A DNA stretch of 21,800 nt. Origin: a virus. The notes below the pieces were generated by a model, which saw only the letters and a list, made by a program, of their open reading frames with translations, ran no database searches and was not told the DNA's origin. Made by a program: the position numbers and the translations under genes. The stretch is from positions 1 through 21,800 of IMG/VR virus record IMGVR_UViG_3300003322_000268; one strand, given 5' to 3'. Below are positions 2,433-21,765 of the stretch, one piece after another; within the stretch, counting starts at the first letter, position 1; the number at the start of each line of letters is the position of its first letter.

Positions 2433-2577
2433 AAGTAAAATCACTTGGTTTTGGCGCCTCATCTGACAACTGAGGGGCCGGCGCAGATGCGATTTCGTCT
2501 AAAATACGCTCCAGTTTCTTGGAGTCTCCATTCGTGACCTTTTCCACCGCGCGTTGAAGTGCCTCTTCTCGCGTCAT
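2425..2577 (-). CDS. Small 50-aa protein between virion genes
   Basis: A 50-residue ORF starting at an ATG that overlaps the TGA of the upstream lysozyme-bearing gene (ATGA) and ending inside the start of the giant downstream protein. The first 35 residues (beginning MTREEALQRAVEK) are charged and likely helical; the tail is Pro/Ser-rich. A longer version starting at 2613 is possible, but it would overlap the upstream gene more and lacks a reason to be preferred. No family was recognised. The tight overlaps on both sides support it as a real gene, perhaps a small virion or chaperone-like component, but the function is unknown. Confidence 0.65.
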   Translation of the reverse strand: MTREEALQRAVEKVTNGDSKKLERILDEIASAPAPQLSDEAPKPSDFTYV

Positions 2578-3137
2578 GCCATTCCGAGCGCGTCGCGCGT
2601 TTGGTTGTCCCAACGGTTCACGAGGCCTTTCCAGAAGGGGCTCTTCTCGCTGCGTCCGACGTATTTGCTGCGTTCATACCACTCGCGGGCGGTGCGGAAC
2701 TCGGTGAGCAAGGCCTTCGGGTCCTTCTCCGCCGCGTCGAAAGCGGCCTGCGTCTTCGGTCCCCATTTGCCATCCACTTCCACGCCGAGCGCCTTTTGCA
2801 TGATGCGCACCGCGCCGGTCGGCCCGCGGTTGAAAGCGGCATCCTGGAGCGCGAATTTCACGCCGGGGTTCGTGGCCTTTTCGGCGACGGCAGAGCCATA
2901 GCCGGCGATGTAACGCGCGGCCTCGGTCTCGGCCTCCTTGGATTTCCCGGCCTCCACCATGGCCTTGAGCTTGGCGGCCTCGGCTGGGTGGTATTTGTCG
3001 TTGATGCCGGCCACCTCGTAGGTGCCGCCGCCATCGCCGCTCGGGAGCTTGTAGACGGCGAGATTGCCCGCCTTGTCGCGTCGCGCCTCGTAGTTGACGA
3101 TGGTGCGCGCGGTTTCCGTGGAGTCGTTGCTGCTCAT
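2574..3137 (-). CDS. Possible internally initiated free endolysin (187 aa)
   Basis: Within the virion-lysozyme gene, in the same frame, the codons before Met558 read AAAGGAAAGGACATG. This places a purine-rich AAGGA Shine-Dalgarno about six bases from the ATG, better than the signal of the full-length start. Initiation here would give a 187-aa product (MSSNDSTETARTIVNYEARR at its N-terminus) that contains essentially only the GH108-like lysozyme domain. The boundary falls where the helical virion part ends. No separate endolysin gene was found in the window, so this product could serve host lysis. The signal is seen in the sequence; the use of it is inferred. Confidence 0.45.
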   Translation of the reverse strand: MSSNDSTETARTIVNYEARRDKAGNLAVYKLPSGDGGGTYEVAGINDKYHPAEAAKLKAMVEAGKSKEAETEAARYIAGYGSAVAEKATNPGVKFALQDAAFNRGPTGAVRIMQKALGVEVDGKWGPKTQAAFDAAEKDPKALLTEFRTAREWYERSKYVGRSEKSPFWKGLVNRWDNQTRDALGMA

Positions 3138-4808
3138 GTCCTTTCCTTTCAGGCCTTGGATTTGCTCCTTCGTGGGAGCGGGTTTGTCGGGGTTGAAATA
3201 CTTGTAGAGCCGGTATCCGTGCCACGGCGCGAAGGGAATGACGTCCGTCCAGTTGAAGCCGCTGCCCTCTGCTTTCTGGCCGGCCTTCTGCGTCTGGCGG
3301 TCCGCCGCGGTCTGCTTGCGAATCCACTCGATTCCATCGGCCTGCGTCGCCTTTGGGTTCTCCCGGTGCCAGTCCGTGAAGGCATCCATGAGCTGGTTCG
3401 CTTTCTGCGAGGCCTGGAGGTTGGATTCGATCTCTGGATTGGTGAGTGCCTTGCCGTCCTTCTTCGTGGCCATCTGGCCGAAGTAGCCATCGGAGAGCAT
3501 CCCGCGAATCTCCCCCGTCACGGCGCTCTTCACGGCGTCGCTCGGCTTGAGCTTGCCTTCCTTGCGCTTGGCCTTGAGGTCGTCGAGAAGGTCTTCCTGA
3601 TACCCCGGCGGCATCGTCCGCTTGATCTGGTCGAAGACGGCGTAATATTGCTCGAAATTCGGATCGGTCTCGGGATCGTAGGCCGCCACGATCGCGCGAT
3701 TCTGGGCGCGATTCTCGGCGATCTTCGCCTGCCCGGCCGGGCTATCGACGAAGTTGCGCGTGAGATCGGCCACGCCGCTTTCGATCATGCCTTGCGTCCA
3801 GTCGTTCGCCTCGCCGAACTTCCTCACCTGCTCGGGCGTCGTCCATTTACCGCTTGCGATGGCGTCCATGCCGGCCTCGTAGGAGTCGGCCCTGTTCGCG
3901 CGGAGGAGCGTCTTGGACTGCGATTCCGCACGCAGGATCTCCGCACCGTTCAGCCACGGGAAATGCTCGCTCTTGCCGCTCTTGCGCGCGGCGGCCATGT
4001 CCTCGGCCACGCTCTTCGGGTCCGCCGCGATGGCTGTCTCGACGATGTTCTGACGATGCTTCTGCTCGATGTCGAGCTGCTTGGCTTCCCACTCCTGTTG
4101 GGAAAAAATCCCAACATTCACCGATTCCTCGCCAATTTGATGAGCCAGCTCGAAATTATTGTCCGCGAGCGCGCGGTCGATGGCGTTAATCTGCGTGCCT
4201 CGCTTCAAAACAATGGCGCGACGAGTTGACTCAACCGCAATCTTGTTCGCGTTGTCGGCGAAGAATCGGGCGCTCTCGCTCTCGACGCGGCCTTTGATGC
4301 GGGTGGATGCCCCTAGCCCGGCGATCTTCTCCATCACCTTTGGCTGCATCTCGTTCCACTTCGGATTCCACTCCGAGGGAGGCGGATTGTTCTGCTCGAT
4401 CCATTGCTGATGTTCCGCGCGCGCGTCGCTCAGAATCACGGAGAGATCGCCCATGTCTGTGGCGTCCTTGGCCAGCGCCATCGCCTGCCCGAAATCGTTG
4501 ATCACGCCGGATGCGTGCTGGATGCCCTCGCTGATCGATTGCAGGGCCGCGCCTTCCGCCATGAAGGGCCGGGGATCAATCAGCTCACGCTTCGTCCCGC
4601 GCGTCGACTCGGCCACCCGGCTGGCGCTCCGCCGCACGGAATCTCCCGCGCCGGCCAGCAGGCTTTGCGCGCGTTGCAGTCCGCGGTCGTCCAGCGCCGC
4701 ACCGCTCACATCCACGCCGCGCGCCGTCGGCACACCGGGGAGATTCGGCAGCAGCACGGGCGAGCCCACATTGGGCGCTCCGGGAATATCGGCGAGAGGG
4801 ATGGGCAT
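2574..4808 (-). CDS. Internal virion protein with C-terminal GH108-like muramidase domain
   Basis: A 744-residue protein. Its ATG overlaps the TGA of the gp14-like gene (ATGA). Residues about 1-555 are Ala-, Glu- and Gln-rich, mostly helical and without a recognised enzyme fold, as in T7 gp15-type ejection proteins. From about residue 565 to the end there is a peptidoglycan-hydrolase module: a candidate catalytic Glu574 in VNYEARRD, then GDGGGTYEVAGIND and KYHP, then a helical half with NRGPTGAV and a putative peptidoglycan-binding segment (VDGKWGPKTQAAF). This pattern is that of glycoside hydrolase family 108/putative peptidoglycan-binding phage lysozymes. The protein would be carried in the capsid and open the cell wall during DNA entry. 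An in-frame Met558 has its own strong ribosome-binding site, described separately. Domain call good; exact family would need a profile search. Confidence 0.85.
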   Translation of the reverse strand: MPIPLADIPGAPNVGSPVLLPNLPGVPTARGVDVSGAALDDRGLQRAQSLLAGAGDSVRRSASRVAESTRGTKRELIDPRPFMAEGAALQSISEGIQHASGVINDFGQAMALAKDATDMGDLSVILSDARAEHQQWIEQNNPPPSEWNPKWNEMQPKVMEKIAGLGASTRIKGRVESESARFFADNANKIAVESTRRAIVLKRGTQINAIDRALADNNFELAHQIGEESVNVGIFSQQEWEAKQLDIEQKHRQNIVETAIAADPKSVAEDMAAARKSGKSEHFPWLNGAEILRAESQSKTLLRANRADSYEAGMDAIASGKWTTPEQVRKFGEANDWTQGMIESGVADLTRNFVDSPAGQAKIAENRAQNRAIVAAYDPETDPNFEQYYAVFDQIKRTMPPGYQEDLLDDLKAKRKEGKLKPSDAVKSAVTGEIRGMLSDGYFGQMATKKDGKALTNPEIESNLQASQKANQLMDAFTDWHRENPKATQADGIEWIRKQTAADRQTQKAGQKAEGSGFNWTDVIPFAPWHGYRLYKYFNPDKPAPTKEQIQGLKGKDMSSNDSTETARTIVNYEARRDKAGNLAVYKLPSGDGGGTYEVAGINDKYHPAEAAKLKAMVEAGKSKEAETEAARYIAGYGSAVAEKATNPGVKFALQDAAFNRGPTGAVRIMQKALGVEVDGKWGPKTQAAFDAAEKDPKALLTEFRTAREWYERSKYVGRSEKSPFWKGLVNRWDNQTRDALGMA

Positions 4809-5848
4809 CAGACAGCGGTCGCTTTGGGCGTGGTTCCAGTGTAATATTGAACGTTTCCGATCGCGTCTCCTATTGACGCACTTCCAAAATAGCTTCCGGC
4901 AGTGCCGGCGATGCTCGATGCGCCGGAAATCGCCGTGCCGATCGCGGCCATCTCCGTGGCCCGCGCCTGCGCAAACCCAGCCGCCTTCGAGATGCCGGCC
5001 TCTTCGAGAGACACCTCGTATTTGTCGCGCGCCAGCTCGGCCATTTTCTCGCCCTGGCTCGCCCGGAAATCCGCGGCATTCGCGGCCACATCGGCGGCCT
5101 CCTGCGAGAGCTTTGCCCCGGCGATCTTGAACGCCACGCCGACCTTCGAAATCTCCAGCGTCTTGAGCGCCGCCTTCGCATTGTGGCGCTCCTGCCTGGC
5201 GGAGAGCAGCGACCGCTTGGCCCCGAAGCGCAGCGCCTGTGCCTGCTGGTCGGCCTCGCGCGCATTCATGCGGCTCTCGTAAACGGCATCCTGCGCGGCG
5301 AGTTCGATATTCGCGGCATTTTCGCTCGCCACGATCAGCGGCGATCCCTCCATCACAAGGCCGCTCTTGGCGACCCGGTTGCGCACGACGCCCATTGCTC
5401 GCCGGCCGTCCTCCCGCATGCGGGCTACGCGCTCGCGCCCCTGTGCCTCGATCGTGCGGCCAAAGGCATTCAGCGTGCTCGCATTCTTGCGGGCCAGCGC
5501 GGAATCCATGCGATACAGCCGCGCATTCGTCGTGGCATTCCCGACCGCCGTGGCCGTGGCGTAGGTATTGCCGACATCCTCCAGCCCGGCGTTCAGCTCG
5601 TCGATCTGCCCGCTGCGCTTGGAAATCTGCGCGTTCTGCTTGTCCACCCCGGCTGCGTAGATTTCGCCATCCGCCTCGATGAGATTCGCGCGAAGCTCCA
5701 GCTCCGCGTTCTTGCGCATGATCTCCGCATTCGCCGACGCCACGCCCCGCTGCGCCCCGGCCTGCTGCATCGATCCATAAACAGAAAGGCCCGTTCCCGC
5801 CGCTGTGAGAGCAAAGCTTCCGATGCCAAGTGCGAGTCCCAAGCCCAC
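4808..5848 (-). CDS. gp14-like internal virion core protein
   Basis: A 346-aa protein starting with GTG; a GGGGAGG sequence lies about 11 bases upstream and the previous stop is only 3 bases away. Residues 1-25 form a Gly/Ala-rich hydrophobic helix (LGLALGIGSFALTAAGTGL), followed by about 280 residues of Ala/Glu/Arg/Gln-rich amphipathic helix with repeated A-N-A and R-E-A patterns, and a second Gly/Ala/Ile-rich segment near 285-325. This layout is the one seen in T7 gp14 and similar podovirus internal core proteins, which enter the host outer membrane first during ejection. Its place before a muramidase-bearing core protein and a giant protein agrees with the gp14-gp15-gp16 order. No close sequence match can be claimed. 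Confidence 0.75.
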   Translation of the reverse strand: MGLGLALGIGSFALTAAGTGLSVYGSMQQAGAQRGVASANAEIMRKNAELELRANLIEADGEIYAAGVDKQNAQISKRSGQIDELNAGLEDVGNTYATATAVGNATTNARLYRMDSALARKNASTLNAFGRTIEAQGRERVARMREDGRRAMGVVRNRVAKSGLVMEGSPLIVASENAANIELAAQDAVYESRMNAREADQQAQALRFGAKRSLLSARQERHNAKAALKTLEISKVGVAFKIAGAKLSQEAADVAANAADFRASQGEKMAELARDKYEVSLEEAGISKAAGFAQARATEMAAIGTAISGASSIAGTAGSYFGSASIGDAIGNVQYYTGTTPKATAV

Positions 5849-5851
5849 AGC

Positions 5852-6418
5852 CTACTCGACCTCCCCGTGGAAAAGTTGAGACCACGCCGTGATCCGGCCC
5901 ATCACAAACAGCAAAGGCGCGACATCGACGGGGATGCGGAGAGTCAGGGCCGTTGCGGCCGTAAATGCTCCTGGATTCGGGAAAAGAACCTTCCGATCAT
6001 TGATAAGGGCTCGCGTCACGGCGTTCATCCGCGCGTTCAGATTCGGGTTCATCTCCTCGATCAAAAGCGAAACCGGGGCCCAGATTGGGTCTGGCTCTCC
6101 GCTGGAAAAGCTTGTCCCCCACCCTGGAACCTTCATCCCAGCCGCGAGCATCCCCGGAACTTCATCCGCGGCGTTCTCATGGCTCAGAAATTCGCAAATT
6201 CGCTCGAGAGGTGCGTGCTTTCCCCCAAGGGACAAAAGCGCCGATGCGATGCTATTTGCGTAACTAGCTCCACCTCTCGCCGCGTTCACCACGGCTTGAG
6301 AGCTGGGATTGTTTCGGAACGACGATTGATGATGCGCCAGAAACAAGGCGTTCAGCAGGGCGAGTTCATTTTCATCGAGCGGAGTATCCCGCCATGCCGA
6401 GACATCAATTCCGAACAT
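5852..6418 (-). CDS. Degenerate citrate synthase / citryl-CoA lyase-like protein
   Basis: A 188-aa protein with a good Shine-Dalgarno (GAGGGAGGCGGCGCATG), overlapping the end of the sulfotransferase-like gene by 14 bp. It resembles the C-terminal catalytic part of the citrate synthase superfamily. Residues 25-70 (LFLAHHQSS, SYANSIASALLSLGGKHAP) match the block that holds the first catalytic histidine, here His68. Residues 96-104 (KVPGWGTSF) match the GFGHRVY block, but the second histidine is replaced. Residues 145-188 (LFPNPGAF, LRIPVD, LLFVMGRITAW) match the PNVDFYSG and FAIARxxGW blocks, but the catalytic Asp is replaced by Gly/Ala; Arg175 is kept. The protein is less than half the usual length of about 400 residues. 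Two of three catalytic residues are lost, so ordinary citrate synthesis is unlikely; a binding or structural role is possible. Confidence 0.6.
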   Translation of the reverse strand: MFGIDVSAWRDTPLDENELALLNALFLAHHQSSFRNNPSSQAVVNAARGGASYANSIASALLSLGGKHAPLERICEFLSHENAADEVPGMLAAGMKVPGWGTSFSSGEPDPIWAPVSLLIEEMNPNLNARMNAVTRALINDRKVLFPNPGAFTAATALTLRIPVDVAPLLFVMGRITAWSQLFHGEVE

Positions 6419-6974
6419 GCGCCGCCTCCCTCATCAGTTCGCGCCGCACTTCAATGTGCAGGGAGAGCATCTTTTCGATGTGAAATTCTGGGAGCGGAAG
6501 CCCGCCGGTGCAAAAATTCCACAGCCTCCGAAGAACATTCGGATTTTTCAGATCATCGAAAGAAAACTCCTCCGGTCGGTAGATCGTATTAAGCCTTTCG
6601 ATCTTCTTGAGAAGCGGGCGAATCGTCTGGCTTGCGCTTGCGACATCACACACAACCTCGAGCGACGCACAGCATTCCTGAGGATCGCGGCGAAGATACG
6701 CCACCCTTGCCCCGGTGCGCGTGATGACCTCCTCGGCAATGGAAGTCATCCCGCTGTCGCACACTCCAAACGCCTGCGCGTAGGAGTGCGTCAACCGGAT
6801 CGCAATTTCCTCCGCCGTCATGCCGTGCGTGTCGTGCAGGCAATACGAGCCAAATCCCGTAAGGAACGTGGAAACCCATGCCGTCATCGATCGCGGGAGC
6901 GCCAGAATGATGAACACGGTGGGCGTCATTGTTTCAACTCGAACCTCGCCAGTAAATGCCGTCAGGTCCGGCAT
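6405..6974 (-). CDS. Sulfotransferase-like P-loop protein
   Basis: A 189-aa protein. The ATG at 6974 follows the tail-gene stop by one base and has GGAG six bases upstream. A second in-frame ATG at 6929 would give 174 residues but has a poor ribosome-binding site. Residues 20-38 (VFIILALPRSMTAWVSTFL) form a beta strand and the 5'-phosphosulfate-binding loop of PAPS-dependent sulfotransferases (PRSxT). Residues 90-104 (RVAYLRRDPQECCAS) match the 3'-phosphate-binding motif with its Arg and Ser. The family transfers sulfate from PAPS to sugars, lipids or small molecules. The protein is shorter than most family members (about 250-300 aa). It is the first gene of a two-gene cassette with the citrate-synthase-like gene, inserted between tail and core genes. 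The substrate is unknown; virion or cell-surface modification is a guess. Confidence 0.65.
   Translation of the reverse strand: MPDLTAFTGEVRVETMTPTVFIILALPRSMTAWVSTFLTGFGSYCLHDTHGMTAEEIAIRLTHSYAQAFGVCDSGMTSIAEEVITRTGARVAYLRRDPQECCASLEVVCDVASASQTIRPLLKKIERLNTIYRPEEFSFDDLKNPNVLRRLWNFCTGGLPLPEFHIEKMLSLHIEVRRELMREAAHVRN
6930..6945 (+). repeat. Copy 4 of the repeated element, inverted, in the sulfotransferase-like gene
   Basis: TGTTTCAACTCGAACC on the plus strand, identical over 16 bases to the copies before terS and the capsid gene, and over 17 bases (with a leading T) to the terS copy. It lies just upstream of the second possible ATG (6929) of the sulfotransferase-like gene and points opposite to transcription, unlike the other three. 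Confidence 0.6.
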
Positions 6975-6975
6975 G

Positions 6976-9792
6976 TCAATCTCCGCTCGGGCTCCATTTC
7001 GCGATGATCGCCCGCAGGATAAAAGGCATCGGCGAATCCTGCCGCAGCATCACGTCGCCGCCGCCGTCGGTGAATCCACCGTCCGCGAAGGACTGCGTCT
7101 CGCCCGTGAACGGGGCAGGCGAGTCGTCCATCTCGTCCTCTTCGTCGCGGTAAAGAATATCGAACCACTCTTTTCCGCCGTCGGTCGAGTATTGGCCGCC
7201 GAGCGTCTTGTAAACATCCGCCACCACGCGATCGATGCGCGCTTTTCGTCCGCGCGAGGTGCCGTTGCGCATGTCCATGTGCAGCAACATCGGGGCTACC
7301 TTGGGCACGAAGGGCAGGCCGACGAGCACGGTATTCGCCGCCGTCGGCAGGGTGATCTCGCCGCCTTCCACGACATACGTCGCGCCTTCGGATGCGCCAT
7401 CGGCCAGCACGCCCACGGTCGCGCCTTCGAGGTGTTCAAGACCATCGATCACTGTCTCGCCGTCGAACGTCTGCCGCTTCGCGCAATCGAGGTGCCACCA
7501 GTTTTCCTTATCCTCGTTCTCGATCACCGCGCGGGCGTCCGGCCGGAATCTCTCGATGTAACGCACATCGGCCCCGTTGATCTCGCGACGCACCGCCAGC
7601 CACACCTCATCACCATCCGAGCCAGGCACCACGCACACGCTCTCGAAATCGCCAGCCGTCGTGTGCCGATGCCATGCCGACACGTCTTGGTCTCGCTCCA
7701 GAGTCATCCCAAGCAATACGCCGTCGCTTCGGATCGCCCATACGATGCTATCCGGCTGCTGCTGCGCGGCCCATTCCACGATGCCGCCGCGCGTCACATG
7801 CTCCGCGAGCAATGTAAGATCCGGCGCGACATAGCTCTGCTGGTCGTTGTCGAATACAAGCGACCTCACCTTGCGGCCCTGCCGTTGCAGGAAGATCAGC
7901 GAGTCGTTCAGTTCGACGGGCGCGAGAAAATCCGAGCCGAACTTCGTGGTATCCTTCCACGCAATGCTCGTCGCCGAGAGGGTGTCCGCCTGGCTTCCGC
8001 TCGAGAGAAGTCCCTCGGCATTCGCCTTGCCCACACTCAGCACTCCGTCCTTGCTAGCCATCCATTGCACGTGATTCGTCGTGCGACTGAATGCGGTGAC
8101 AAAAAACGCATCATCCGCCAACGTGCCGAGGCGGAAATTCTGGAAATCGTCGATGCGCGATCCCCACTCGCTTTGCGGGCGCATGGCCGTCCCGCCATAA
8201 ACCACCCGCCCCTCGTGCACCGTAATAGACCGCGGATAGCCTTGGTATTCGCTCCACGCGCCCTCGCTCCAGAAGGAGGTCGCCGACGTGCTCGCGAGAT
8301 CGTTGATGACCTCCGCGGTCGCGACATTGTCCGAGGAGATGATCGTGGCCGTGGCCGTGGCGGCAAAGACATATGGCCCCGGCGGATACGGCGGGGCACT
8401 GAATGTCACGGTCGGCGCGCTCGTGTATCCACTGCCTCGATTTGTGATCACCACCGCCGCCACGCGATAAACCGTCGTCGGCACGCCGAATAAATCCACC
8501 ACCACAGGATACATCACCGCGACGCCGGCCGCTCCACTGCCCCCTCCACCGGAGAAGGTGACCGTGGGCGGAGTCGAGGTGTAGGCACTACCCCCGTTTG
8601 TGACCTTGATTGATTGAATCCAACTCGTCGATCCTCCCACGGCCGTGATGCGCACCAAGCCGACATCGTAAGGGCTGTCCACCGAGAGCAGGCCGTAATC
8701 GCCCGACCCGCCGGCCGTGCGGCTTGCCAGCGTGAGGCGCAGCAGCGCCTCTTTCCGCTCGTTCCCCGCCGCCGTCACATTCCGGTCGCTCGCCGAGGTG
8801 TAGGAGCGAATCTGCGCCCACGTCGAGCCTCCATCATACGAGCGGTCCACAGTGAGCGTGCCGCCCCAGGTGCCATACGTCGTGAGCGACCATCCGCCAA
8901 AGACCTTGATCGTGGAGGACGAGCCATTCGCCGCGAACGTCTTCGAGATCGTCGAACTGGCCCGCGCCCAGGCAAGCTGGAAATACGCGCCGACGTGCTG
9001 CGTGTTGAAAACTCCCGGGCCAGCCAGCACGTTATCCGTGAGGGTGATCGAACCTGTCGTGCCGCTCGGCGTGAGCGTAAGGCTGGCGTCGAGGTTTTCG
9101 TCCAGAAGCGGCGGCCAGTCGTATTCCGTCTCGGCAAACGTCCAATCCGCTTGAAAAGTTCCCGCCGCATAGACCGGCGGCCGGTATTGGTTCCGAACGA
9201 GCCGCTGCGGCGGATAACCCGGGTGCGTGAAATAGATGAAGTCGTTGATCTGGACGAACTGCACCGCTCGCAGGTCGATTTCCGCATAAGGCGTAAAAAC
9301 CTCACTCACCGTCTGAGCTCGCCATTTCCCCGCGGCAAGATCCGTGGCGAAGCTGCCTGCCGTGCCGTCCGTCGTGTGCGAGACCAGGCAGATGTAGGTC
9401 GTGCCGCTGTGCGTGACGTATTCCCCCCGCAGGTAGCTCGTGGCGATGGCAGGGCTGCCGCCATCGTTCGCCGTCCATGCCGTTGCGCTGGTCTCCAGCA
9501 CCGGATCGCCCGACCTCGCGTGCCAGAATCGCAGGTAGCCCTCGCCCATCTCGATCACGTAGGCCTGCTCGGTGGAGAAGACGAAAGGGATGAGCCGGCA
9601 GCGGGTATTCGCATGCTCTGCCGCGCCGAGGTATTCCGTGCCCTGCCGGCCCATCGCCGCGCCGTAGGGAAGAGGAATCATGTTCTCCATGATCCGGCAG
9701 CCGGAATAATACTTGTCGCTATCCGTCCGCGAATGCAGCAGCGGCGAAAGCTCCCCGGCGTTGAAAGATCGGACGGCTTGGGCGACGGACAT
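6976..9792 (-). CDS. gp12-like tail tube/nozzle protein with inserted binding domains
   Basis: A 938-aa protein whose ATG shares one base with the stop of the gp11-like gene. Residues 5-55 carry the signature of podovirus tail tubular B/stabilisation proteins: RSFNAGELSPLLHSRTD, then KYYSGC and the GRQGTEYLG box. Residues about 123-158 (VTHSGTTYICLVSHT ... AAGKWRA) look like a small carbohydrate-binding module of the CBM5/12 type. Residues about 393-420 and 447-480 form two copies of a Gly-Tyr-Thr-Ser/PTVTFS beta repeat (GSAYTSTPPTVTFS and GSGYTSAPTVTFS). Residues about 525-700 read like the beta-propeller body (VHEGRVVYGGTA, RPQSEWGSR, FLQRQGRKVRSL). It would form the nozzle of the tail and may touch the host surface directly. 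The family call is firm; the binding-domain calls are by pattern. Confidence 0.88.
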   Translation of the reverse strand: MSVAQAVRSFNAGELSPLLHSRTDSDKYYSGCRIMENMIPLPYGAAMGRQGTEYLGAAEHANTRCRLIPFVFSTEQAYVIEMGEGYLRFWHARSGDPVLETSATAWTANDGGSPAIATSYLRGEYVTHSGTTYICLVSHTTDGTAGSFATDLAAGKWRAQTVSEVFTPYAEIDLRAVQFVQINDFIYFTHPGYPPQRLVRNQYRPPVYAAGTFQADWTFAETEYDWPPLLDENLDASLTLTPSGTTGSITLTDNVLAGPGVFNTQHVGAYFQLAWARASSTISKTFAANGSSSTIKVFGGWSLTTYGTWGGTLTVDRSYDGGSTWAQIRSYTSASDRNVTAAGNERKEALLRLTLASRTAGGSGDYGLLSVDSPYDVGLVRITAVGGSTSWIQSIKVTNGGSAYTSTPPTVTFSGGGGSGAAGVAVMYPVVVDLFGVPTTVYRVAAVVITNRGSGYTSAPTVTFSAPPYPPGPYVFAATATATIISSDNVATAEVINDLASTSATSFWSEGAWSEYQGYPRSITVHEGRVVYGGTAMRPQSEWGSRIDDFQNFRLGTLADDAFFVTAFSRTTNHVQWMASKDGVLSVGKANAEGLLSSGSQADTLSATSIAWKDTTKFGSDFLAPVELNDSLIFLQRQGRKVRSLVFDNDQQSYVAPDLTLLAEHVTRGGIVEWAAQQQPDSIVWAIRSDGVLLGMTLERDQDVSAWHRHTTAGDFESVCVVPGSDGDEVWLAVRREINGADVRYIERFRPDARAVIENEDKENWWHLDCAKRQTFDGETVIDGLEHLEGATVGVLADGASEGATYVVEGGEITLPTAANTVLVGLPFVPKVAPMLLHMDMRNGTSRGRKARIDRVVADVYKTLGGQYSTDGGKEWFDILYRDEEDEMDDSPAPFTGETQSFADGGFTDGGGDVMLRQDSPMPFILRAIIAKWSPSGD

Positions 9793-11918: not shown

Positions 11919-12088
11919 AAAAGTGTCCTCCTGTTTTGAAAGTTTGGGTGTCGTGCTCCCGTGCCTTCCGGAGTGTCCCGCTCGGGGTCTTTCGGCTTGG
12001 GCTGGACCTTGGGAGCAGGCTCCAAACGGAGGTGTCTGCGTGGTCTAGTTGGCTCGCTCTTACAAGGGTTCGAGTTGAAACACAAGAA
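11919..12088 (-). promoter_or_regulatory. Leader region of the capsid gene
   Basis: The 242-bp gap between scaffold and capsid genes is the longest non-coding stretch in the window. Reading leftward it holds an intrinsic terminator, the 17-bp repeated element at 12066-12082, then about 140 nt with several short complementary GC-rich segments (for example GGAG...CTCC near 12020-12040) and finally AGGAGG before the capsid ATG. No convincing ORF lies in it. The layout suggests that the capsid has its own transcript with an untranslated leader. Confidence 0.5.
12066..12082 (-). repeat. Copy 1 of 17-bp repeated element, upstream of capsid gene
   Basis: On the minus strand this reads TGTTTCAACTCGAACCC. 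It lies 7 bases after the T-run of the terminator that ends the scaffold transcript and 147 bases before the capsid start. It is identical to the copy before terS and differs by one base from the copy after terL. The position directly behind a terminator supports a promoter or activator site. Confidence 0.7.
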
Positions 12089-15992: not shown

Positions 15993-16080
15993 AAGCTGTA
16001 TAACCGGTCGTTCGCCATGAAAACGGGTTCGAGGTGAAACACTCACTATTCCCTGCCCCATCTCGAATCAAGCCCAAAAC
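15993..16080 (-). promoter_or_regulatory. Non-coding gap after terL with copy 2 of the 17-bp element
   Basis: An 88-bp gap between the terL stop and the 47-aa gene. The element lies at 16025-16041 and reads TGTTTCACCTCGAACCC on the minus strand, one base different from the other copies. Since the neighbouring head genes downstream are tightly packed, this is the likely place for a new transcript start for the portal-scaffold block. Confidence 0.5.
16025..16041 (-). repeat. Copy 2 of 17-bp repeated element, after terL
   Basis: TGTTTCACCTCGAACCC on the minus strand, 16 of 17 bases identical to the copies before terS and before the capsid gene. Same orientation relative to transcription as those two. 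Confidence 0.65.
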
Positions 16081-18145: not shown

Positions 18146-18253
18146 GCGGGTTCGAGTTGAAACAACTTGACACAAAAAGTCAATGCCACGTTACCCTCAG
18201 CCCTGAGCGACTCGCCGTCTTTCATGATTCGCCGAACTGTCGCCGAAGCGGAC
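18146..18253 (-). promoter_or_regulatory. Regulatory gap before terS
   Basis: A 108-bp gap separating the early block from the late morphogenesis block. On the minus strand it holds an inverted repeat TTGACTTTTTGTGTCAA (18183-18167; arms TTGAC/GTCAA), immediately followed by AGTTGTTTCAACT and then the 17-bp repeated element. The stacked symmetric sites look like an operator or activator region for the switch to packaging and head genes. No TATAAT-type -10 box is evident at 17 bp from TTGACT. Confidence 0.5.
18148..18164 (-). repeat. Copy 3 of 17-bp repeated element, at terS start
   Basis: TGTTTCAACTCGAACCC on the minus strand, two bases before the terS ATG and identical to the copy upstream of the capsid gene. 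Its closeness to the start codon rules out a separate Shine-Dalgarno. Confidence 0.7.
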
Positions 18254-20258: not shown

Positions 20259-20761
20259 TGGTTCTCCTCCGAAAGAGAATCCAAAATTGCCAAGGCTCCT
20301 TTACCAATCGGGCCAGACAAACAAGGGCTGTCTTCAAGCGCTTTAAAAATCTCGACCGCCTCGGCATAGCTGCGCACGACGGCGATGCGCCATCCATTTG
20401 CGCGCATGCGCTCGTGCATGGCTACCTGCTCGGGTTGCGGCTTCTGCCCCGGCAGTTTCACTTCCCAGGCAATCGACCGCCCGCGGTGCGAGAAAAGAAT
20501 GTCCGGCACGCCAACCTCGAGATTCGAGCGCCGGTCCATCCGCTGACGGATCGGGACGATATTTTCCCGCCGCAACAGTGCCTCGATCTGGTTTTGCAAA
20601 TCCTTCTCGCGCTTCGGCGCGTCGGCATTAGCCAGCGCGCGGTCGAATTTCTCGGAATCCCGTTTTTGCTGCTCCAGCACGCCGCGAATCATCGCGCCAT
20701 TTCGCGCCTTCGCCGCCGGAGAGAGCGCCGCCATCAATTCCGCCATCGTCGTCTTGCTCAT
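20255..20761 (-). CDS. VRR-NUC domain nuclease
   Basis: A 168-aa protein. The ATG at 20761 overlaps the integrase stop (ATGA); the frame stays open upstream inside the integrase gene, but that part is a shadow. After a charged helical N-terminus (1-50), residues 51-145 form the VRR-NUC fold of the PD-(D/E)XK class: Glu in KDLQNQIEALL, then GVPDILFSHRG with catalytic Asp87, and IAWEVKLPGQKPQPEQ with Glu100-x-Lys102 and a following Gln. Such stand-alone phage nucleases act on branched or flapped DNA during replication and recombination. Encoded between the integrase and the replication genes, it probably helps one of these. The C-terminal 25 residues are extra. Confidence 0.85.
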   Translation of the reverse strand: MSKTTMAELMAALSPAAKARNGAMIRGVLEQQKRDSEKFDRALANADAPKREKDLQNQIEALLRRENIVPIRQRMDRRSNLEVGVPDILFSHRGRSIAWEVKLPGQKPQPEQVAMHERMRANGWRIAVVRSYAEAVEIFKALEDSPCLSGPIGKGALAILDSLSEENQ

Positions 20762-21765
20762 GCAAACCTCCTCGCCGTCTCCGGCAACTCGAATCGCGGC
20801 ATCTCGACAATATTCCCCGGCCGTTGGTCGAGCGGGCTCACGATCCGCGCCGCCAGCCGCGGCAGGCAATGGAGGTAATTCTGCGTCGTCTCCAGATTCG
20901 TGTGCCCCAGCAGCTCCCGCAGCGAATTGAGATCGCCGCCATTGCGCAGGTATTCCGTCGCAAAACTGTGGCGGTAAACATGCGCCGTCACCCGTTTCAG
21001 CACGCGAGCGCGCCGCACCGCGATCGGGATCGCCTTCGCCAGCGTATCGGGATGGATATGGTGCCGCACGTTTCCCCACTGCGTCCCCCGCGCAAGTCCT
21101 GCCGCCGGCATCAGCCAAAAATTCCCCTCCGCGTATCCCGCCCGCGGCTGCTTGCGTGCCACGCACTCCGGCACCCACACCGGCCCGACGCCCCGTTCGC
21201 GATCCTGTCGCCACAGCGCCTCCGCCCGCGCGTCCTGCTCGCGCAACTTCTCGACCAGCGCGACCGGCAGGCATGTCACTCGATCCTTCTCCCCCTTGCC
21301 ATCGCGCACGACAATCGTCAGGTCCGCCCAGTTCACATCCCGCCGACGCAGCCGGCAGACTTCCGTGATTCGAAAGCCTCCGCCATACATCAGCTCACAC
21401 GCCAGCCTTGGCAGCCCGGTCATCTGTTCCAGCGTCGCCAACGCCTCCTCGTGCGTCAGCCAGACGGGAAGCCGCTTCGGTTTCTGCGCATAAGTCCACT
21501 TAGGCAAGTCGCCCAAAGGCTTTTCAAACCCATGTTTGAAAAGAAACACAATGGCATTTAGCGCCTGATTTTGCGTCGCCGCAGCCCATCCCGCCGCGTG
21601 GCGACTTAGGTAGTCGGACACCGCGTCTTCCGGAGTCCCAATCTTCCAATCCACCTCATCCAAGAATCGCGAAACACATCCGCGATAAGTCTGTCGCGTG
21701 CGATAAAGAGATCGCTTACGATCAAACCCACGCTCCAGCAACTCCATCGCTTCTGACTTTTTCAT
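20758..21765 (-). CDS. int: Integron-integrase-type tyrosine recombinase
   Basis: A 335-aa recombinase. The N-terminal SAM-like DNA-binding domain spans about 5-85 and the catalytic domain 95-315. Catalytic residues are all present: Arg132 (GGGFRITE), Lys157 (GKGEKDR), His262 and Arg265 (HVYRHSF), His288 (ELLGHTN) and nucleophile Tyr297 (TTQNYLH). Between the Lys motif and the His box lies an extra segment, about 187-222 (VWVPECVARKQPRAGYAEGN, then FWLMPA), followed by VRHHIHPDTLAKAI. This matches the additional domain of IntI enzymes (PxALxRKYPxA...FWVFP, RRHHxxxxxxQRA), as does SPLD near the end. XerC/D and ordinary phage integrases lack it. It is the first gene of the early block; only 35 bases lie upstream, so promoter and attachment site are outside the window. 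Confidence 0.88.
   Translation of the reverse strand: MKKSEAMELLERGFDRKRSLYRTRQTYRGCVSRFLDEVDWKIGTPEDAVSDYLSRHAAGWAAATQNQALNAIVFLFKHGFEKPLGDLPKWTYAQKPKRLPVWLTHEEALATLEQMTGLPRLACELMYGGGFRITEVCRLRRRDVNWADLTIVVRDGKGEKDRVTCLPVALVEKLREQDARAEALWRQDRERGVGPVWVPECVARKQPRAGYAEGNFWLMPAAGLARGTQWGNVRHHIHPDTLAKAIPIAVRRARVLKRVTAHVYRHSFATEYLRNGGDLNSLRELLGHTNLETTQNYLHCLPRLAARIVSPLDQRPGNIVEMPRFELPETARRFA

Follow-up and report, generated by a model that had tools for sequence, protein, structure and literature searches.

A predicted sulfotransferase and a citrate-synthase-like pseudoenzyme in the gp13 slot of a phage virion operon

Two overlapping genes on the minus strand of a 21.8-kb virus record, the whole of which is the window analysed here, lie within the virion operon of a podophage at the place held by gene 13 in T7. 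The product of the upstream gene, ORF A, is very probably a sulfotransferase-fold protein whose predicted cofactor site is intact, as judged from conserved motifs and a structural model. The product of the downstream gene, ORF B, is by alignment a half-length pseudoenzyme of citrate-synthase type in which the catalytic positions have been lost. The reading that we favour, tentatively and with slightly less than even confidence, is that A and B together fill the gp13 slot and do a gp13-type job, with A an active sulfotransferase and B its partner or a docking factor. A search of an open-access literature library found no description of an A/B-type pair or of variability in the gp13 slot.

The gene pair and its operon

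ORF A (6405–6974, minus strand) encodes 189 aa and ORF B (5852–6418, minus strand) 188 aa, the end of A overlapping the start of B by 14 nt (6405–6418, minus strand). The 5' neighbour of the pair encodes tail tubular protein B, the T7 gp12-like nozzle (6976–9792, minus strand; phrog_376, PHROG E = 3.5e-174; alignment A1), and the 3' neighbour a gp14-like internal virion, or pilot, protein (4808–5848, minus strand; phrog_418, E = 2.3e-9). Next downstream is a gp15/16-like internal protein with a C-terminal peptidoglycan-binding domain (2574–4922, minus strand; PF09374, E = 8.2e-7; phrog_1224, E = 7e-4). The coordinates and the PHROG neighbours agree with an earlier note on this DNA, which had described two genes with a 14-nt overlap at 5852–6974, between gp12-like and gp14-like genes.

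By codon use both ORFs look coding: the in-frame score is +0.24 bits/codon for A and +0.17 for B, the other five frames being negative for both, and each ORF is preceded by a good Shine-Dalgarno sequence (GGAG for A, GGGAGG for B). Only 1 nt separates the stop of the tail gene from the start of A, and 3 nt separate the stop of B from the GTG of the gp14-like gene. In consensus scans of the A/B region, neither strand showed a sigma-70-like promoter, other promoter types escaping such scans, and the gene strand showed nothing resembling a terminator. The tight packing, together with this negative result for the gene strand, makes the pair look integral to the operon. A search of the region against Rfam gave no match.

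Third-position GC is 0.63 in B against about 0.78 in the neighbouring genes, and A also falls below its neighbours. A compositional departure at least as large as that of A is found in 7 of 47 comparable slot genes, and one at least as large as that of B in 4 of 47. Recent joint acquisition of A and B was considered on these grounds, but the case is weak, as other slot genes deviate as much. The proposal in the earlier note that the two were acquired together is not borne out, given this modest shift and the existence of prophage loci, described below, in which the sulfotransferase is joined in one protein to another partner.

The same note had placed a copy of a regulatory element at the 5' end of the pair. 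The 15-mer GTTCGAGTTGAAACA is indeed present there; it occurs exactly at 6930–6944 (minus strand), 12068–12082 (plus strand) and 18150–18164 (plus strand), and with one mismatch at 16027–16041 (plus strand). These four matches compare with 0.54 expected, and none of 100 shuffles reached four. The copy in A lies within its first codons, ends just before an internal ATG (6929) and, taken in the direction of transcription, reads the opposite way to the other three. Those three agree with one another in their direction with respect to the genes and share an extended similarity (GTTTCAACTCGAACCC); two are close to gene starts, that of the terminase small subunit and that of a small gene following the large terminase, and the third is upstream of the capsid gene. 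The 15-mer is a possible operator or promoter element; a regulatory role for the copy in A is not established, because this copy is inverted and lies inside the first codons.

Of 289 genomes sampled from the phylum to which a Spartobacteria MAG belongs, 33 have a relative of the tail protein of this phage (L254–L283 among the loci), a hint that the phage group has a Verrucomicrobiota host. A tyrosine-recombinase-like ORF, recognized by eye at the edge of the window (20758–21765, minus strand), suggests a temperate phage. No tRNA was found within the 21.8-kb stretch. Limnohabitans phage DC33 (L228; PQ492659.1), among the other loci collected, has a genome of 39 kb yet is filed as Inoviridae, and its taxonomy line looks wrong.

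ORF A, a predicted sulfotransferase

ORF A matches PHROG 10855 (E = 3e-12), and its phage homologues carry the labels NTP hydrolase or ‘similar to sulfotransferase’. Across an alignment of six homologues (A3), the segment L26-P-R-S-x-T-x-W33 and residues C45, H47, R96 and S104 are invariant; in A the loop reads LPRSMTAW, of which L, P, R, S, T and W are the invariant letters. We take this loop to be the 5'-PSB loop, and R96 and S104 to be the 3'-phosphate-binding pair, of PAPS sulfotransferases. In SULT enzymes the 3'-phosphate-binding Arg and Ser are spaced about eight residues apart, and the invariant R96 and S104 show the same eight-residue spacing. An AF2 model of A (pTM 0.64) gave seven Foldseek matches with E < 0.001, all of them sulfotransferases and including SULT1A1, Teg12 and TPST. 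Alignment of the model with VIA-align gave Z of about 9.5 to TPST and Teg12, a score tied with those of P-loop kinases, and the best named matches in a viral structure library were ‘Sulfotransferase family’ phage proteins. No Pfam sulfotransferase family was matched by A at its curated threshold, relatives of A reach PF13469 only sub-threshold, and the A3 profile yielded only a weak sulfotransferase match among PDB sequences (E = 0.29).

The PHROG match and the Foldseek results sustain the sulfotransferase-like fold that had been suggested for A, and the conserved motifs indicate that A is probably an active PAPS-dependent sulfotransferase. Compared with SULT1A1, Teg12 and TPST, which it resembles in predicted fold and in both the 5'-PSB and 3'-PB motifs, A is shorter at 189 aa and lies below the Pfam thresholds. 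Members of the PHROG 10855 family in phages PaMx11, phiH1, PaMx28 and JG012 are homologous to A and have identical PAPS motifs, but their genes are located outside the virion operon and have no citrate-synthase-like partner.

ORF B, a citrate-synthase-like pseudoenzyme

ORF B scores 31.7 bits (E = 1.1e-7) with the citrate synthase family (PF00285, Citrate_synt), above its curated threshold of 27 and in keeping with the earlier assignment, and its matches among PDB sequences are 2-methylcitrate synthases and citrate synthases. The match covers profile positions 157–341 of 357, so that B corresponds to the C-terminal half of the family; the N-terminal half is absent, and the reading frame opens just upstream of the start of B. 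When B is aligned with seven cellular citrate synthases, HGGAN is deleted, GFGH has become GWGT, PNVD has become PNPG and the C-terminal RPRQ, with its Arg, is lost, whereas the PGWG loop, FPN and the Arg of FxxxRxxxW are retained. One local alignment puts a His of B near the first catalytic His, which leaves that position ambiguous; the other two members of the catalytic triad are clearly lost.

Profile and structure searches, put forward in the earlier note as a check on both proteins, thus bear out A by Foldseek and PHROG, and B by the Pfam profile; a single-sequence AF2 model of B, built without homologues, has a pLDDT of 35, and the citrate-synthase fold of B is read from its sequence profile only. 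Of the binding to CoA- or PAPS-like nucleotides that was also envisaged, PAPS binding by A is predicted through its motifs only, whereas CoA binding by B is doubtful because the catalytic residues are gone and the loop sequence is only partly left.

The possibility that B is a common phage gene was rejected when tblastn found no match in 50,697 phage records; B likewise had no match in viral contigs, and PF00285 none in 46 other virus records. Citrate synthases that do appear in ‘phage’ records look like bacterial DNA, being full-length enzymes amid housekeeping genes. Among the 289 genomes, B matched only long open frames of 378–415 aa, as long as cellular citrate synthases, with 25–30% identity.

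Occupants of the gp13 slot

The interval between phrog_376 and phrog_418 that holds A and B is the T7 gp13 slot. In most known relatives examined, it contains one gene of about 150 aa with a match to GNAT or to phrog_308, phrog_4177 or phrog_1249; such genes are present in BcepC6B, HTVC034P, Vibrio MZH0603, Manatee Spring ct8d5349, YeP5 and Caulobacter BL94. The GNAT slot families include phrog_308, an internal virion protein, and show weak matches to PF11090 (T7_Gp13). The slot of vir555 holds a phrog_831 protein and that of BPP-1 no gene. A GNAT of this kind has been equated with T7 gp13, for which a suggested role in virion morphogenesis was cited (PMC6775973). In T7 itself, gp13 is necessary for infection, its location being given as undetermined in a review (PMC8811829), and the virion proteome of the T7-like phage phiPsa17 names gp14, gp15 and gp16 as detected, gp13 not being in the list (PMC4517105).

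Scans with tail-protein alignments gathered the loci of a slot census (L014–L093 and L104–L226), of which 182 had enough downstream DNA. Our own HMMs assigned a GNAT gp13-like protein to 73 of these, a phrog_17252-type protein to 53 and a cupin-like protein to 21, and recognized nothing in 35. These are counts of loci, several of them near-identical, and not of independent lineages, and the 35 are an upper bound, as inspection by eye shows that L045, L087 and L088 have genes of GNAT appearance which the HMMs did not pick up. Neither a sulfotransferase of the A type nor a citrate synthase of the B type was found by HMM in the slot of any of the 182 related loci, so the co-occurrence at this locus that the earlier note had thought worth surveying did not materialize. 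Nor is the slot normally confined to structural genes, as that note had supposed; its usual occupant is a small GNAT-type or cupin-like protein.

Assignment of phrog_17252 as a firm GNAT was tried and dropped, as PDB and Pfam searches gave nothing clear and hhalign against the GNAT slot proteins was weak (E = 9e-4, probability only 23%); it is labelled GNAT-like here. The cupin-like label derives from weak Cupin_2 matches (structures, E = 0.015; Pfam, E = 0.009), and the PHROG labels of this family include ‘short tail fiber protein’ and ‘tail fiber adhesin’. Cupin-like slot proteins were seen in L107, L109, L121, L124, L150–L153, L158–L160, L163–L168, L170, L175, L178, L183 and L258. No relationship was detectable between the cupin-like and the Asp-hydroxylase-like slot proteins. 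The slot GNAT HMM matched neither A nor B, and hhalign of A3 against the GNAT alignment gave a probability of 0.1. The pair shares with T7 gp13 (PF11090) and the GNAT slot proteins (phrog_308, phrog_4177, phrog_17252) its place, a similar size and the possession of a small enzyme fold, predicted in its case, but differs in having no sequence similarity to them, in comprising two genes rather than one, and in its predicted sulfotransferase fold and citrate-synthase-like pseudoenzyme.

Sulfotransferase homologues beside pilot-type genes

The A3 profile was also searched against the 289 genomes and a further 240 genomes of one order. All matches came from a single genome, G243 (Verrucomicrobiota), where they fall in two prophages (L238 and L239). 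Each prophage has, between its tail gene and a gp14-like gene, a gene for a single 341-aa protein that joins a sulfotransferase domain (E = 2e-15 and 4e-14) to a domain of the phrog_17252 type (E = 1e-22 and 1e-24). This is the closest match to the A/B arrangement that was found: the slot, the sulfotransferase in first position, a second domain after it and the tail and gp14-like flanks are all shared. The differences are that the two parts form one fused protein and that the second domain is gp13-like rather than citrate-synthase-like. To judge from these domain matches, the A/B pair looks like the L238/L239 architecture in which a dead citrate-synthase domain has taken the place of the gp13-like half. 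In a tree, A groups with the slot-located L094 homologue and the L238/L239 domains (support 92/88), on a branch below the starred level and with long rows.

In three podophage-like contigs (L094, L095 and L098), a sulfotransferase homologue lies directly upstream of a pilot-type gene. In L095 this pilot-type gene has a match to phrog_598 (DNA ejection), and a structural gene upstream has one to phrog_578; in L094 and L098 the ‘pilot-type’ label was given by position and appearance, with no PHROG match of note. Genes resembling Asp/Asn beta-hydroxylases adjoin pilot or internal virion genes at several loci (L095, 4444–4995; L098, 5453–6061; L227, 4974–5528; L229, 4983–5579). The hydroxylase-like gene stands beside the sulfotransferase in L095 and L098, and in Pseudomonas phage PfAn1 (L229) it adjoins an acetyltransferase, the neighbours there being labelled ‘putative acetyltransferase’ and, twice, ‘putative internal virion protein’; in ctXG1253 a homologue lies inside a virion-like region. 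Most sulfotransferase homologues of isolated Pseudomonas phages are located outside the virion operons, amid replication and metabolism genes, and that of L097 is on the opposite strand amid siphophage tail genes. The A+B pair itself was found in none of the other viruses searched, and the exact combination is seen in one genome only.

Function of the pair

Occupying the T7 gp13 slot, A and B would have a gp13-type task, helping to make the ejection apparatus or to arm it. In this task A would contribute PAPS-dependent sulfotransfer, and B would stand where related phages have the gp13-like domain, serving as the partner of A or as a docking or assembly factor for pilot proteins; translational coupling would hold the two at matched levels. 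The analysis shows the position, the folds (that of B by profile), the motifs kept in A and lost from B, the pattern of replacement and the fusion in the slot. Beyond these, we infer that the occupants of the slot share a function, and that A is a catalyst which B binds and which acts on a virion or pilot protein. In favour of a gp13-type job we count the slot census, the L238/L239 fusion, the motifs of A, the Foldseek matches, the packing of the operon with no promoter found on the gene strand, the grouping in the tree, the recurrence in L094, L095 and L098, the weak PF11090 matches of the GNAT slot families and the similarly placed Asp-hydroxylase-like genes of L095, L098, PfAn1 and ctXG1253. 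Against it we count the single genome from which the exact pair is known, the lack of sequence similarity between B and gp13-like proteins, the profile basis of the fold of B, the tree branch below the starred level and the 35 of 182 relatives with nothing recognized in the slot. The job may be dispensable or done elsewhere in some lineages, because of these 35, and the sulfotransferase family can serve other roles, since most of its Pseudomonas phage members lie outside virion operons.

The main rival, which we think has a limited but real chance of being correct, is that the pair is late-expressed cargo for host takeover or modification, A sulfating a host molecule such as a surface glycan, a lipid or a regulatory protein and B being a regulator or a remnant. 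The setting of the Pseudomonas phage relatives among replication and metabolism genes would fit such a role, as would the empty slots and the example of Rac of LUZ19, a GNAT that acts on host RNA polymerase and adjoins the structural cluster (PMC7552054). It is harder to reconcile with two genes for which the consensus scans found no promoter or terminator of their own on the gene strand, with a slot that, in the relatives examined, is flanked by the nozzle gene and the pilot genes, and with the L238/L239 fusion, which ties a sulfotransferase to the slot protein. The evidence is undecided between a gp13-type job and this late host modification. That A and B are both virion components, structural parts made from enzyme folds and packaged with the pilot proteins, is improbable: their location in the virion operon and the tail-fiber labels of the cupin-like slot proteins speak for it, but gp13 was not among the proteins named as detected in phiPsa17 virions (PMC4517105), and A keeps cofactor-binding motifs for which a purely structural part has no need.

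Two further explanations concern B, and both are very unlikely. The slightly less remote of them holds that B is a decaying, functionless fragment of a captured host citrate synthase, as its half length, its lost catalytic residues and its low third-position GC might indicate; against decay stand an intact frame, coding-like codon use, a strong Shine-Dalgarno sequence, tight packing with the neighbouring genes and a divergence from cellular enzymes that normally brings stop codons in an unconstrained frame. The other makes B a functional small acyl-CoA-binding enzyme and the pair a two-step metabolic cassette, for which the most that can be cited is the retention of the PGWG loop, FPN and the FxxxRxxxW Arg; with HGGAN, GFGH, PNVD, RPRQ and the whole N-terminal half missing or altered, we consider it the least probable of all.

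Implications for gp13

The place of the pair, at which related phages usually carry a T7 gp13-type gene with an acetyltransferase fold, suggests a slot open to unrelated enzyme folds that serve one job, whether in building the virion or in taking over the host. A bolder version of the gp13-type reading, which we regard as speculative and rather unlikely to hold in full, would make the slot an interchangeable enzyme-fold position, open to GNAT, cupin-like, Asp-hydroxylase-like, sulfotransferase and pseudo-citrate-synthase proteins that modify or chaperone the pilot proteins; in the present phage a dead citrate synthase would have been recruited as the gp13-like partner of an active sulfotransferase, leading to sulfated virion or ejection proteins. 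If unrelated folds do replace gp13 in place, the job is likely to be set by partner and timing and not by one chemistry, and comparing the occupants of the slot would then be a route to the job of gp13 itself. The pair could also give a case of a citrate synthase made into a pseudoenzyme by a virus, and it could mean that phage ejection proteins are subject to post-translational modification, possibly sulfation.
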